64,000 bases of DNA, from contig NZ_VLKR01000004.1 in the NCBI RefSeq assembly GCF_007830445.1, positions 179,604-243,603 of the forward strand, given 5' to 3'. Source of the stretch: Sphingobacterium siyangense (GTDB lineage: Bacteria; Bacteroidota; Bacteroidia; Sphingobacteriales; Sphingobacteriaceae). Positions 7,786 through 18,011 of the stretch are shown in pieces. The notes beneath the pieces are model-generated. The model made no database searches and was not told the origin of the DNA. It was given only the letters and a program-made list of their open reading frames with translations. Position numbers and translations under genes: made by a program. How positions within the stretch are numbered: the stretch's first letter is position 1; each line of letters begins with the position of its first letter.

Positions 7786-10700
7786 ATGAATTTTAATTTT
7801 CTTGTTCATAGAAATCGAATTGCTGTGAACATACCCAAGCAATGGAAGACCAAAATGAAGCTTAGTGCCTTTTTTACCCTTGCATGTGTTGTTAAGCTGT
7901 CTGCAGCTAGCTACGCACAATCAATTACTATTAACGCCAAAAAAATGTCTTTGGTGCAGGTATTACGTACCATCCAAAAACAGAGTGGCGTCCCCTTTCT
8001 GTTGAATGGTAAAGAACTTGCCGACATTAAAATTGAGGCGCAGGTTCGTAATATGCCTTTAGAAAAAGCCATACAGCTTCTCTTAAAAGACCAACCTGTC
8101 GATTGGAGTTTTCAGGACAATATGCTTGTCGTAACGAAGTTAAAAACAAATTATCCGACTTATGAGCTTCCAAATAACTACACGTTAGTACAACAAACCC
8201 GCACATTCAAAGGAAATGTTCACGATAGCAAAGGAACAATGCTTCAGGGCGCGACGATTATAATAAAAGGTTCGACAAGGGCAACCACGACAGATGAAAG
8301 TGGTAACTTTCAGATCGAAGCAAATAATAATGCCGTACTCGTGATTAAAATGATCGGCTACCAAACCAAAGAAATCCCATTATCCAACCAGCTTTACCTG
8401 AATATTGAACTTAGCCAACAGGTCGATGCTTTGGAAGAAGTCGTCGTCGTAGGCTACGGTACGACAAAAAAGAAAGAATTAATCGGTTCGGTTTCCCAAG
8501 TTGATGGGAAACAACTAGCCAAACGCTCCGTTCCCCAGCTTGCGCAAGCCCTCACAGGTCAAATGCCCGGTGTGACCGTCATACAGCGATCTGGTCAGCC
8601 TGGTGCAGCAAACAATACCATACAGATCCGTGGTGTGGGTTCGTTCGGTGCAAGTACCGACGCGCTTATTTTAGTCGACGGTATACCCACCAATTCCTTC
8701 AATGATATCGATCCAAATGATGTTGCATCTATCTCGGTACTGAAAGACGCTTCCTCCGCTGCGATATATGGAGCTAGAGCCGCCAACGGTGTTATTCTGG
8801 TTACAACAAAAACCGGGGCAACAGGTGGAAAATTAACGGTCAATTACAATGGCTATTACGGTATCCAGAAACCAACAGCGTTCCCCGAATTTGTCAACTC
8901 TTGGGAGTACGCTTCCTTGCTCAATGAAACCACAAGTGGCGGCGGAGGCTACACCGCAGAGGAGATCCAAAAATTTAAAGATGGCTCGGATCCCGATAAC
9001 TACCCAAATAGGAATTACTTGACCAGTTCATTCAAGTCCCAAGCGGCGCAAACAGGCCACAACTTAAATATATCCAATACCACAGATAAAATACAATACA
9101 CCTTATCTGCGGGCTTTCTCAATCAAAAAGGTATTGTCATCAAAAACAATTTTGACAAATACAATGTCCGCCTCAATCTCATATCAAACCTCAATGACAA
9201 GCTCAAATTAACGACGCGGGTAGCAGCAATTCAGACCGAAACAGACGAACCCGCAGCACCGGCAACGCTTGACTTCTCCAGCATGACGGATATCATTTCT
9301 CAGGTGATTCGCTATCCCGCCATATACCCGATCCGCCTGAGCAACGGCGACTGGGGCGCAGGGAATAACCTGAAGGGGACACCTGTATCTTTCCTGGAGA
9401 GCGAATCTTTCTACAAAGAAAAAGTATCCAATATCTCCGGAAACGCAAGACTCGACTGGAAACCGATTTCAGATCTGACCTTGTCCGCTATTGGGGGCTA
9501 TACGCAGACGAATGGCCGCACAAAACTTTTTAGAGCATCACAACGGATCAACAATTCCATTACGCTCGGACCTTCTAGCCTCAATCAAACTGCTCCTTAT
9601 GAAACGTATAAAACGTTTCAGGCCTTAGCAGACTATAATAAAACGATCGGGGAACATTCCCTGAAAATATTGGGCGGTTATTCTTTCGAGAAAGGCTACA
9701 GCGAAGGTTTAAGCGCTTACCGCCAGAATTTTCCCAGCAATGATCTTACCGAGTTAAATGTAGGTTCACCAGATGGACAACAAAATACTGGTACAGCTAC
9801 TGAGTGGGCATTGGAATCGTTATTTGCACGCATACAATATAACTATGCCAAGAAATACCTGGTCGAAGGTGTTGTTCGATACGATGGATCTTCCCGTTTT
9901 CCAACCGATAAAAAGTATGCCACTTTTCCTTCAATTGCAGTAGGTTGGCTACTGAGTGAAGAATCGTTTATAAAGGACCACTATAGCTGGATAGACGAAT
10001 TGAAAATCAAAGGATCTTATGGAGTTCTCGGTAACCAAAATATTGTCAATAATGTCCAACAGCGCGTTGTCTCTAACTACCCATACCAGGATGTTTTAAA
10101 TCCTGGTTACAATTACCCCTTTGGAAACACTATTTCTCCAGGGGTCGCCCGAACAACAATTGTTGACCCTATGCTACGCTGGGAATCGACCCGAACGGCA
10201 GATGCGGGCGTAGAAGTGGCTTTATTTAAAAATTTACTGACCTTCAGCAGTACCTATTATAACCGATATACTTACGATATTTTGGTGAGCCCAGGTTCTA
10301 GTGTTTCCAAAATTTTGGGTTTTGAAGTAGGTGTACAAAATTCTGGAAAACTTCGAAATACAGGATGGGAATTTACACTAGGGCATCAAAAAAAATTAAA
10401 TGATTTTTCTTACAACGTAAATCTGAACTTCTCTACGGTCAAAAATAGGGTCGTCGATTTGGGTGTCGGCAATATCAATCAACCGAATGGCTTAGTGGGA
10501 AATGGTTCAACCCTATTTATCGGTTACCCGATTCAAGCCTACTACGGCTACCAGGCCGATGGCTTGTTTATTGATGCAGCCGATATTGCAAGCTATACCA
10601 ATCAAACCAGCATCAACCCCAAACCGCAACCAGGCGATATCCGCTACAAGGACATCAGTGGCCCCGACGGTGTACCTGATGGAAAAGTAGACGCTACGTA

Positions 10701-11214
10701 CGACCGAACTGTAATTGGATCACGCATCCCCAAATACACCTACGGGATGAATATCGGAATGAACTACAAAGGGTTTGACTTAGGAATACTTCTTCAAGGT
10801 GTAAGCGGTGTCAAAGGCTTATTGGACAATTATGCTGGATTTGCGTTGACACAAAACGGCAATATCCAACGCTGGCAAGCTGATGGCAGATGGACTGCAG
10901 CCAATCCCGATCGAAATGCCATATACCCAAGAATTGAACAATTGCCGAATACTGGCACACCAAATACCCTGCTATCGGACTACTGGTTACTGGACGCAAG
11001 CTATCTGCGGCTCAAGAACATCCAATTGGGTTATACCATTCCTAAGCACATCCTTAACAAATGGAAATTGTCGGGTCTAAGGGTTTACGCAAATGCCGAA
11101 AACCTATTCACGAAAAGCAACTATAGAAAAGGATGGGATCCCGAAATCAATTCAAGCGGAGCCTACTACCCTATTATGCGCAATTTTACATTTGGGGTTA
11201 ACCTTAGTTTTTAA
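7786..11214 (+). CDS. SusC-type TonB-dependent transporter with STN domain
   Basis: A 1142-residue outer-membrane protein. After a signal region ending near SYAQS (about 45) come an STN domain (about 47-118), a carboxypeptidase-regulatory-like domain (about 138-215), the plug (about 220-345; VVVGYGTTKKKELIGSVSQV at its start, QIRGVGSFGASTDALILVDG inside) and a beta barrel ending in NLSF. It should import, with the lipoprotein SusD that follows 17 nt later, an oligosaccharide or other large ligand. The STN domain marks a transducer that signals through the upstream FecR protein. ATG 7786 gives a long n-region common in this family; M24 (7855) is an alternative start. Confidence 0.95.
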   Translation: MNFNFLVHRNRIAVNIPKQWKTKMKLSAFFTLACVVKLSAASYAQSITINAKKMSLVQVLRTIQKQSGVPFLLNGKELADIKIEAQVRNMPLEKAIQLLLKDQPVDWSFQDNMLVVTKLKTNYPTYELPNNYTLVQQTRTFKGNVHDSKGTMLQGATIIIKGSTRATTTDESGNFQIEANNNAVLVIKMIGYQTKEIPLSNQLYLNIELSQQVDALEEVVVVGYGTTKKKELIGSVSQVDGKQLAKRSVPQLAQALTGQMPGVTVIQRSGQPGAANNTIQIRGVGSFGASTDALILVDGIPTNSFNDIDPNDVASISVLKDASSAAIYGARAANGVILVTTKTGATGGKLTVNYNGYYGIQKPTAFPEFVNSWEYASLLNETTSGGGGYTAEEIQKFKDGSDPDNYPNRNYLTSSFKSQAAQTGHNLNISNTTDKIQYTLSAGFLNQKGIVIKNNFDKYNVRLNLISNLNDKLKLTTRVAAIQTETDEPAAPATLDFSSMTDIISQVIRYPAIYPIRLSNGDWGAGNNLKGTPVSFLESESFYKEKVSNISGNARLDWKPISDLTLSAIGGYTQTNGRTKLFRASQRINNSITLGPSSLNQTAPYETYKTFQALADYNKTIGEHSLKILGGYSFEKGYSEGLSAYRQNFPSNDLTELNVGSPDGQQNTGTATEWALESLFARIQYNYAKKYLVEGVVRYDGSSRFPTDKKYATFPSIAVGWLLSEESFIKDHYSWIDELKIKGSYGVLGNQNIVNNVQQRVVSNYPYQDVLNPGYNYPFGNTISPGVARTTIVDPMLRWESTRTADAGVEVALFKNLLTFSSTYYNRYTYDILVSPGSSVSKILGFEVGVQNSGKLRNTGWEFTLGHQKKLNDFSYNVNLNFSTVKNRVVDLGVGNINQPNGLVGNGSTLFIGYPIQAYYGYQADGLFIDAADIASYTNQTSINPKPQPGDIRYKDISGPDGVPDGKVDATYDRTVIGSRIPKYTYGMNIGMNYKGFDLGILLQGVSGVKGLLDNYAGFALTQNGNIQRWQADGRWTAANPDRNAIYPRIEQLPNTGTPNTLLSDYWLLDASYLRLKNIQLGYTIPKHILNKWKLSGLRVYANAENLFTKSNYRKGWDPEINSSGAYYPIMRNFTFGVNLSF

Positions 11215-16152: not shown

Positions 16153-16746
16153 ATGCGGCAAATAGAATCATACATCAATACACTTAAAGAAGGTGATGAA
16201 ATGGCTTTATGCTTTTTTATGGATCATTTTGGTCATTCCTTACGCTATTTTGCCTTTTCTTACCTCCGCAACAAAACCGATGCCGAGGAAATTGTCTCCG
16301 ATGTTTTTGTTAAACTCTGGAATAATAGACAAAAGGTAGAGCATTATGAAAGCCTTAAAGCCTTTCTTTTTATCGCTACTAAAAATGCCTGTATCGCTAT
16401 GCAAAGAACTACGCAATTCAAAATACGGAAAGAGGAACTCGATATTCTGCAGCATATGTCGGTTCCAGATGAAGATGTACTCAAGAAGATATTCCGAACA
16501 GAACTCACCGAGTTGTTACTTGCTGAAATCAATTTGCTTCCCAAACAACAAGCTCAGATCTGCAAGCTCAGTTTTTTGGAAGGCTTGAATACAGATGAAA
16601 TTTGCGAAACATTGAACACAACCGCATCAACCATCTATTATGCGAGATCCAAAGCATTGCATGCGTTAAAAGAACGTTTCAAATCGAAAAAATTTGAATA
16701 TCTCACCATCCTAATGCTGACAGCATGGTATACCTTCAAAAGTTAA
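16153..16746 (+). CDS. ECF (FecI-like) RNA polymerase sigma factor
   Basis: A 197-residue sigma-70 family protein of the extracytoplasmic-function type. Region 2 spans about 10-75 (YLRNKTDAEEIVSDVFVKLW) and region 4 about 120-175 (LPKQQAQICKLSFLEGLNTDE then the helix-turn-helix through STIYYARSKALHALK). The C-terminus carries a short hydrophobic tail (YLTILMLTAWYTF), common in Bacteroidetes ECF factors. Partner choice is inferred: the only FecR-type anti-sigma factor in the window opens the same locus 8.5 kb upstream. The usual order is sigma then anti-sigma side by side, so this layout is odd. Confidence 0.92.
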   Translation: MRQIESYINTLKEGDEMALCFFMDHFGHSLRYFAFSYLRNKTDAEEIVSDVFVKLWNNRQKVEHYESLKAFLFIATKNACIAMQRTTQFKIRKEELDILQHMSVPDEDVLKKIFRTELTELLLAEINLLPKQQAQICKLSFLEGLNTDEICETLNTTASTIYYARSKALHALKERFKSKKFEYLTILMLTAWYTFKS

Positions 16747-16850: not shown

Positions 16851-16930
16851 AAAAAAAAGCTTAGCATTCGGTCGGGCGACCTGCTAAGCTTTTATAAATA
16901 CCTCTTTGTAAGAGGCAATCAACCTAAACC
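16851..16930 (-). ncRNA. Candidate small RNA of about 80 nt with own promoter and terminator
   Basis: On the minus strand a textbook promoter (16936-16967) is followed about 7 nt later by a short transcript with no reading frame. A small hairpin (CCTCTT/AAGAGG) comes first, then a strong stem (AAAAGCTTAGCA with TGCTAAGCTTTT and an inner GGTCG/CGACC) ending in T8 at 16858-16851. No gene follows on this strand, because the next is the convergent end of the ECF sigma gene, so it is not a leader. I recognise no Rfam family. Function is unknown; a trans-acting regulator is possible. Confidence 0.6.
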
Positions 16931-16935
16931 TAGGA

Positions 16936-16967
16936 CAAAGATAGTGGTTCAAATGATATAAACAAAA
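16936..16967 (-). promoter_or_regulatory. Promoter of the candidate small RNA
   Basis: Minus strand: TTTTG (16967-16963), 19 nt, then TATCTTTG (16943-16936). Both box sequences and spacing fit the Bacteroidetes primary-sigma consensus. The rest of the interval 16968-17391 shows no other recognisable element. Confidence 0.7.
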
Positions 16968-17391
16968 ATTTTGTTATATTTTTTTTCAACTCCCATAAAT
17001 TTGTTTTAGCACAGCAATCACAAAAGGAATAGTAAGTGTACAATGTACACTACAATCTTTTTGCATTTTTCAACAGGTTATTTTTTTGGTTGCTTCGCTC
17101 AGCTAGTCCCAACCACAGTATTTAACCCTTGCATTATTTATCTTTACAACAGAATAACCGATCATCTCCTGCCTTCGTTTTATCTGTCACTTTTATCTTT
17201 ACGTACTCAATTGCATCCGTAAATATAGCCTAAAGGTCAATACAGACCACAATTGTTGATTGTCCCTTAACTTTCAAGTCTGCCATTTAACTTAATTTGG
17301 TGGTGAAGTCTGATTTCAGATGTAATCACCATGAGCTCTTATCTACCACATTTGTGCGATCTAAACATCGATATTTCATTTAATTATTTAG

Positions 17392-17420: not shown

Positions 17421-18011
17421 ATGTTTACTGGAATCATAGAAACCCTAGGAAAAATAGAAAATATCGAACAGGAAAAAAGCAATATCCATTTTTACGTCAG
17501 TTCTGATATTTCCAATGAACTTAAAATAGACCAGAGTGTAAGTCATAATGGCGTTTGCCTTACCGTTGTGGGATTGAACAATAATCAGCATAAAGTGACG
17601 GCAATTGATGAAACCTTGCAGAAGACAAATCTCGCTCAATTAAGGATGGGCGACCTGATCAATCTGGAACGTTGTACTTTGGCAGGAGGAAGATTTGATG
17701 GACATATCGTCCAGGGACATGTGGATCAGACTGCGCGTTGTATCCAAAAGAAAGATGAAAATGGTAGTTTTATTTTTACCTTTCAATATGATGTTTCCAA
17801 ACAAAATATCACCGTAGAAAAAGGATCCATTACCGTAAATGGTATCAGCTTGACCGTAGTAGACTCTAAAGACGATCAGTTTTCAGTTGCTATCATTCCG
17901 TATACACTAGAGCATACCAACTTACAACAAGTTGAGGTGGGTAGCACAGTCAACTTGGAGTTTGATATTATCGGAAAATATGTCACAAAGATAATGGCTT
18001 TACGCGCTTAA
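17421..18011 (+). CDS. ribE: Riboflavin synthase, alpha subunit type
   Basis: A 196-residue protein with the two tandem lumazine-binding beta barrels of riboflavin synthase: MFTGIIETLG at the very start, VSHNGVCLTVV (first repeat) and ITVNGISLTVV (second repeat), and GHIVQGHVD between them. The enzyme dismutates two 6,7-dimethyl-8-ribityllumazine molecules into riboflavin and a pyrimidine in the cytosol. The start MFTG is the family norm and agrees with the promoter position. It is a lone gene, without the other rib genes nearby. Confidence 0.95.
   Translation: MFTGIIETLGKIENIEQEKSNIHFYVSSDISNELKIDQSVSHNGVCLTVVGLNNNQHKVTAIDETLQKTNLAQLRMGDLINLERCTLAGGRFDGHIVQGHVDQTARCIQKKDENGSFIFTFQYDVSKQNITVEKGSITVNGISLTVVDSKDDQFSVAIIPYTLEHTNLQQVEVGSTVNLEFDIIGKYVTKIMALRA

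Follow-up and report, generated by a model that had tools for sequence, protein, structure and literature searches.

A minus-strand small RNA gene that is conserved throughout the genus Sphingobacterium was identified in the window, i.e., the 64,000-nt stretch of DNA analyzed here. Most likely (we put the probability at about three in four), it is a stand-alone gene for a trans-acting seed sRNA of about 82 nt with a FopS/GibS-like mode of action. The putative RNA extends from about position 16932 to position 16851, its inferred 5' end lying a few nucleotides past the −7 box (Table 1). All elements named in the preliminary description, i.e., the sequence TTTTG-N19-TATCTTTG (spanning 16967–16936), about 80 nt with two hairpins, and a run of eight U, were found in place on the minus strand. 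There is no gene downstream of the sRNA gene on the same strand, the ECF-sigma and sulfatase ORFs both being located on the plus strand.

Table 1. Features of the sRNA locus and its flanking genes (window positions)
Feature	Position	Strand	Basis or remark
−33 promoter box TTTTG (TTTG core)	16963–16967	−	Sequence; conservation across loci
−7 promoter box TATCTTTG (Bacteroidota TAnnTTTG)	16936–16943	−	Sequence; conservation across loci
RNA 5' tail UAGGUUUAGGUUGAUU, predicted unpaired seed, nearly invariant	16917–16932	−	Alignments, fold, paralogs
Hairpin 1 (GCCUC...GAGGU), GCCUCUUACAAAGAGGU	16900–16916	−	Predicted fold; pair conservation
Hairpin 2 (terminator stem, inner stem, and conserved UCGCCCGA apex)	16856–16892	−	Fold; compensatory changes
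U8 tract, intrinsic terminator, RNA 3' end	16851–16858	−	Sequence; chance estimate
ECF sigma factor gene, convergent, outside the conserved unit	16153–16746	+	Neighbor in close relatives only
ribE, riboflavin synthase (Lum_binding), divergent neighbor	17421–18011	+	Kept in 43 of 43 distinct loci

Taken alone, the two-box promoter is weak evidence and could be due to chance; TTTG-N19-TANNTTTG matched twice in the window, as compared to 0.7 matches expected. For the terminator, the number expected by chance in the window was 0, and the predicted fold was better than that of shuffled sequences (z −4.6; none of 200 as good). In the predicted fold, begun near the inferred 5' end, the 5' tail is mostly unpaired. 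A sigma-70 and terminator scan of the window detected neither the promoter nor the terminator and is uninformative here, as was to be expected: Bacteroidota promoters differ, and the terminator hairpin carries a 3-nt bulge. Within the RNA, no ORF shared across the homologs was found, and a small-peptide reading was rejected on these grounds.

Conservation decides the matter. A DNA similarity search detected the RNA in the window's genus, Sphingobacterium, and a covariance model (R1), built on 16 relatives with the window's own clade left out, found one strong copy in 65 of the 68 sampled Sphingobacterium genomes including that of the window, with E-values down to 2e-18 (2e-12 in the window genome). 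In the alignment of 37 distinct sequences, which was fitted to the model, 99.7% of the pair cells were paired, and two-sided compensatory changes (for example C-G to U-A, G-C to A-U, and G-C to C-G) occurred at 9 of the 19 base pairs; covariation in relatives, which the preliminary description had named as a check, is thus present in Sphingobacterium. An unfitted (free) alignment also yielded this structure, again with double changes. The covariation score was reached by none of 500 shuffles, and slid structures dropped from 0.354 to 0.156 or less. Within hairpin 2, two-sided compensatory changes were observed at 8 of 14 pairs; in hairpin 1, four of the five pairs are invariant, the outer pair occurring as A-U, G-U, or U-A. 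The best-conserved part of the RNA in the genus alignments is the near-invariant 5' tail.

As to the promoter, the −7 box is retained in 53 of 57 distinct loci, as compared to 1.3% at random positions, and both boxes, with TTTG 19–21 nt upstream of the −7 box, are retained in 40 of the 57 (0.4% at random positions). A lack of both boxes in close relatives, which would have spoken against the gene, was therefore not observed, and the observation is taken to be real because the promoter boxes are conserved across loci. The features by which intergenic sRNAs are recognized, namely an own promoter, an own terminator, a conserved RNA structure, and no conserved ORF, were all found. On the basis of these comparisons, we regard the genus-wide, previously uncatalogued RNA gene as established. 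The roughly 50-nt stretch preceding the −33 box (window 16963–17015, minus strand; CAAATTTATGGGAGTTGAAAAAAAATAT...) is nearly identical within the S. multivorum-like clade, albeit not in more distant species, and is a possible regulator site.

An Rfam search of the window at the gathering threshold matched only the tRNA at 456–528, and at relaxed thresholds, too, no family scored above threshold for the sRNA, which hence is uncatalogued. With no Rfam match, and with promoter, structure, and terminator conserved genus-wide, its earlier designation as a previously unlabelled small RNA gene holds. The top weak match of a bacterial sRNA family over the RNA was OmrA/OmrB (Rfam RF00079; 22.4 bits, E 0.09), far under the gathering score of 40; a single-stranded 5' part followed by a terminator is common to both, the resemblance being in shape only. 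OmrA and OmrB are Hfq-dependent sRNAs of enterobacteria. A literature search covering open-licence papers found no account of this RNA in Sphingobacteriaceae.

The exact 14-mer AGGTTTAGGTTGAT of the tail was searched in 301 Sphingobacteriaceae genomes, with the reversed pattern as control. Nearly every Sphingobacterium genome contains about two copies, one in the sRNA gene and one associated with the gene of EF-P. Copy numbers were 3–17 in genus g27, 6–15 in g39, and mostly 1–4 in g37, as compared to about 0–1 for the reversed control. In g27 and g39, one or two short hairpins and then a U-run come after the tail in most copies that were inspected, and some copies have a TAnnTTTG box of their own. 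The second tail copy of the window genome (L098 ~2038, minus strand; G000:C3:229550–229563) begins about 15 nt past the end of the EF-P coding sequence, directly ahead of a terminator hairpin; at 21 loci, which belong to several genera, such a 3'-UTR copy lies between the EF-P stop codon and the terminator, 9–33 nt past the coding sequence. By eye, several paralogs and the EF-P copy consist of a single-stranded 5' part followed by one terminator hairpin. To judge from their sequences, the tail-bearing loci are a family of small RNAs which share the 5' tail and are either promoter-driven or 3'-UTR-derived. The terminator apex (16870–16880) is C-rich, with UCGCCCGA in the window RNA and AUCCCCAAA in many paralogs (loops of L087, L091, and L125), and represents a possible second contact or protein site.

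Outside the Sphingobacteriaceae, a search for the promoter-plus-tail pattern across the phylum gave no excess over the control. In a Mariniphaga record from outside the family (L353 ~2931), the tail occurs as well, and a terminator hairpin comes after it. A scan of viral contigs with a 15-mer, which is too short a pattern for a judgment, yielded at least 120 matches. The sequence GTGATAAGGTTTAGGTTGAAA, followed by a strong hairpin, recurs in genera g38, g44, g43, and others (L212, L215–L217, L223–L235, and L240 near 1501), and this element is probably another class of sRNAs that likewise contain the core tail. The motif CAACCTAAACCTTATCACAA near ATG, considered as a target motif, turned out to be mostly the reverse strand of the GTGATAAGGTTTAGGTTGAAA-plus-hairpin element in genera g38, g44, g43, and g30, which itself resembles an sRNA; for this reason, the motif was left out of the target evidence.

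The FopS sRNAs of Bacteroides, 14 of which are present in B. thetaiotaomicron, are expressed from a primary-sigma promoter and have a 5' seed that is unpaired, as well as a terminator. They inhibit the translation of susC, and the RRM protein RbpB binds and antagonizes them; they are multicopy, with 12–15 per genome (PMC11697453). The window RNA has a canonical TTTG/TAnnTTTG promoter of the primary-sigma type, and it resembles FopS in size (about 65–80 nt), in having a conserved 5' seed, predicted to be unpaired, ahead of an intrinsic terminator, and in the occurrence of paralogous copies in several relatives, one of them 3'-UTR-derived. However, it is devoid of the TTTTTCATAGT block and contains an extra hairpin between tail and terminator, whereas FopS RNAs have a single terminator hairpin directly after the 5' part. 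Besides, the window genome has two tail copies rather than many, multicopy sets being confined to g27 and g39, and an RbpB-type RRM_1 protein was not found in it. Because of the low copy number, the extra hairpin, and the failure to find an RRM protein, the window RNA was not classed as FopS. GibS likewise has an unpaired 5' seed, R1, which is also that of FopS and by which it pairs at the start codons of metabolic mRNAs (PMC7366714); it differs in its length of 145 nt, its two seeds, and its non-canonical PM2 promoter, and was set beside the window RNA by description, not by sequence.

The similarity of the window tail alone to the published FopS seed consensus GTGTTTTTCATAGTATTAGATTTAAGGTTAACAAA was not significant (P 0.11). 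When paralogs from g37 and g25, which contain both a TTTTTCATAGT-like sequence and AGGTTTAGGTTGAT, were compared with the FopS consensus, only 0–1 of 5000 shuffles scored as high. Copies from genus g37 (TTTTTCATAGTTTAGTTTGAGGTTTAGGTTGATT) and FopS (TTTTTCATAGTATTAGATTTAAGGTTAA) form a bridging pair. Two genomes of another family contain 5–7 FopS-consensus copies each, together with one copy of TTTTTCATAGTTAAGGTTTAGGTT, a FopS-like RNA with AGGTTTAGGTT, that is followed by a terminator-like hairpin. Judging from these sequence comparisons, the window RNA and FopS/GibS are likely of common descent, although the relationship would be a distant one.

A pairing seed would be expected to show up as an unpaired 5' tail shared by RNAs whose bodies vary, and the recurrence of the RNA's first 16 letters in many sister sRNAs of the family suggests message silencing by pairing near start codons. 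Start-site pairing of the seed is proven for both GibS and FopS (PMC7366714, PMC11697453). Among 26 exact complements of the tail outside sRNA genes, eight are located 1–23 nt before a gene start, as compared to a background of 2.8% (P = 4e-7); the test is a small one, with one pair of close relatives among its sites, which were a sample of those found. The genes behind these eight sites include those of an alpha/beta hydrolase, a DsbD-type transporter, an aldehyde dehydrogenase, and a secreted protein; in genus g38, an exact complement is situated 33 nt before the start of a TonB-receptor-type gene. In two g37 species (L152 and L153 near 1501), the start of the gene for the same secreted protein with an F5/8-type C domain is preceded, at a distance of 11 nt, by an exact complement of the tail, which makes this gene a candidate for a conserved target.

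In the window genome, an exact complement of the tail is absent apart from the two sRNA copies, and duplex energies calculated for 1307 initiation regions (1.66 Mb) showed no excess over upstream control regions. A weak trend was seen for the initiation regions of SusC genes (30 genes; mean reached by 5 of 200 shuffles). The window itself contains a gene for a SusC-type TonB-dependent transporter (8200–11211), and there are 56 such genes in the genome.

Seed pairing is the best inference for the mode of action. Leftward transcription would start from the gene's own primary-sigma (TTTG/TAnnTTTG) promoter and end at the intrinsic terminator. The unpaired tail would then act as a seed, pairing with translation-initiation regions and blocking ribosome entry, while stability would be conferred by hairpin 1 and the terminator; at the C-rich apex of the terminator, there may be a site for a protein or for a second contact. 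The stand-alone copy would be controlled through its own promoter and the 3'-UTR copy through the expression of EF-P, with both serving one common regulon. Alternatively, the RNA might act mainly by protein binding, as a sponge or a 6S-like effector, with the tail and the UCGCCCGA apex as protein sites rather than a seed. The near-perfect conservation of the 16-nt tail and of the C-rich apex across the genus is consistent with such a role, as is the binding of FopS by RbpB in Bacteroides; however, complements of the tail lie just ahead of gene starts in relatives more often than expected, and neither Hfq nor an RRM_1 (PF00076) protein was found in the window genome, which makes this alternative unlikely.

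The genes flanking the sRNA gene have to be considered as well. The divergent ribE gene, retained in all 43 distinct loci, lies at a distance that ranges from about 63 nt, in one genome, to several hundred nucleotides. Its constant presence and the short distance in that one genome would agree with cis control of ribE, exerted by transcription in the shared intergenic region or by an overlapping control site, with the RNA product being of minor importance. The variable distance, the conservation of structure and tail as RNA, and the occurrence of the same tail at many unrelated loci argue against this and render it quite improbable. The ECF-sigma gene, on the other hand, adjoins the sRNA gene in only about 5 of the 43 distinct loci, all in close relatives, and the idea put forward in the preliminary description that the RNA could regulate the sigma message is therefore without comparative support; its other suggestion, that the RNA could act elsewhere, fares better. 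The convergent arrangement, with the sigma stop codon about 105 nt from the 3' end of the RNA, might still suggest an antisense or 3'-end regulator of this message, but the ECF gene is missing at the locus in most of the 43 distinct loci, and the conserved tail is unlinked to it, tail and structure being conserved even where there is no sigma gene; we thus consider such a function very improbable. That the hairpin is a mere terminator of the plus-strand sigma gene, combined with a chance promoter match, is hardly credible, for although a hairpin followed by TTTT can be read on the plus strand and a two-box promoter alone is not rare, the boxes, their spacing, and the tail are conserved where the sigma gene is absent, and only the minus strand carries the U8 run.

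Going beyond the trans-acting seed sRNA, the window RNA might be a branch of an ancient, AGGUUUAGGUU-type seed family of the Bacteroidota that includes FopS and GibS. Within the Sphingobacteriaceae, the EF-P 3' UTR would be its oldest home and the source of the multiplied promoter-driven copies. In this way, the silencing of mRNAs for surface and metabolic functions would be coupled to EF-P expression and would require neither Hfq nor an RRM protein. We consider this scenario tentative and, on balance, rather doubtful.

To our knowledge, small RNA regulation in the Bacteroidota is known almost solely from Bacteroides. Sphingobacterium now offers a clear case of an sRNA that occurs genus-wide in a single copy and whose candidate seed is defined; a twin in the EF-P 3' UTR exists across the family, and the paralog sets of sister genera are expanded. 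Together, these make it possible to test directly where the FopS/GibS seed originated and whether pairing proceeds without the known chaperones.
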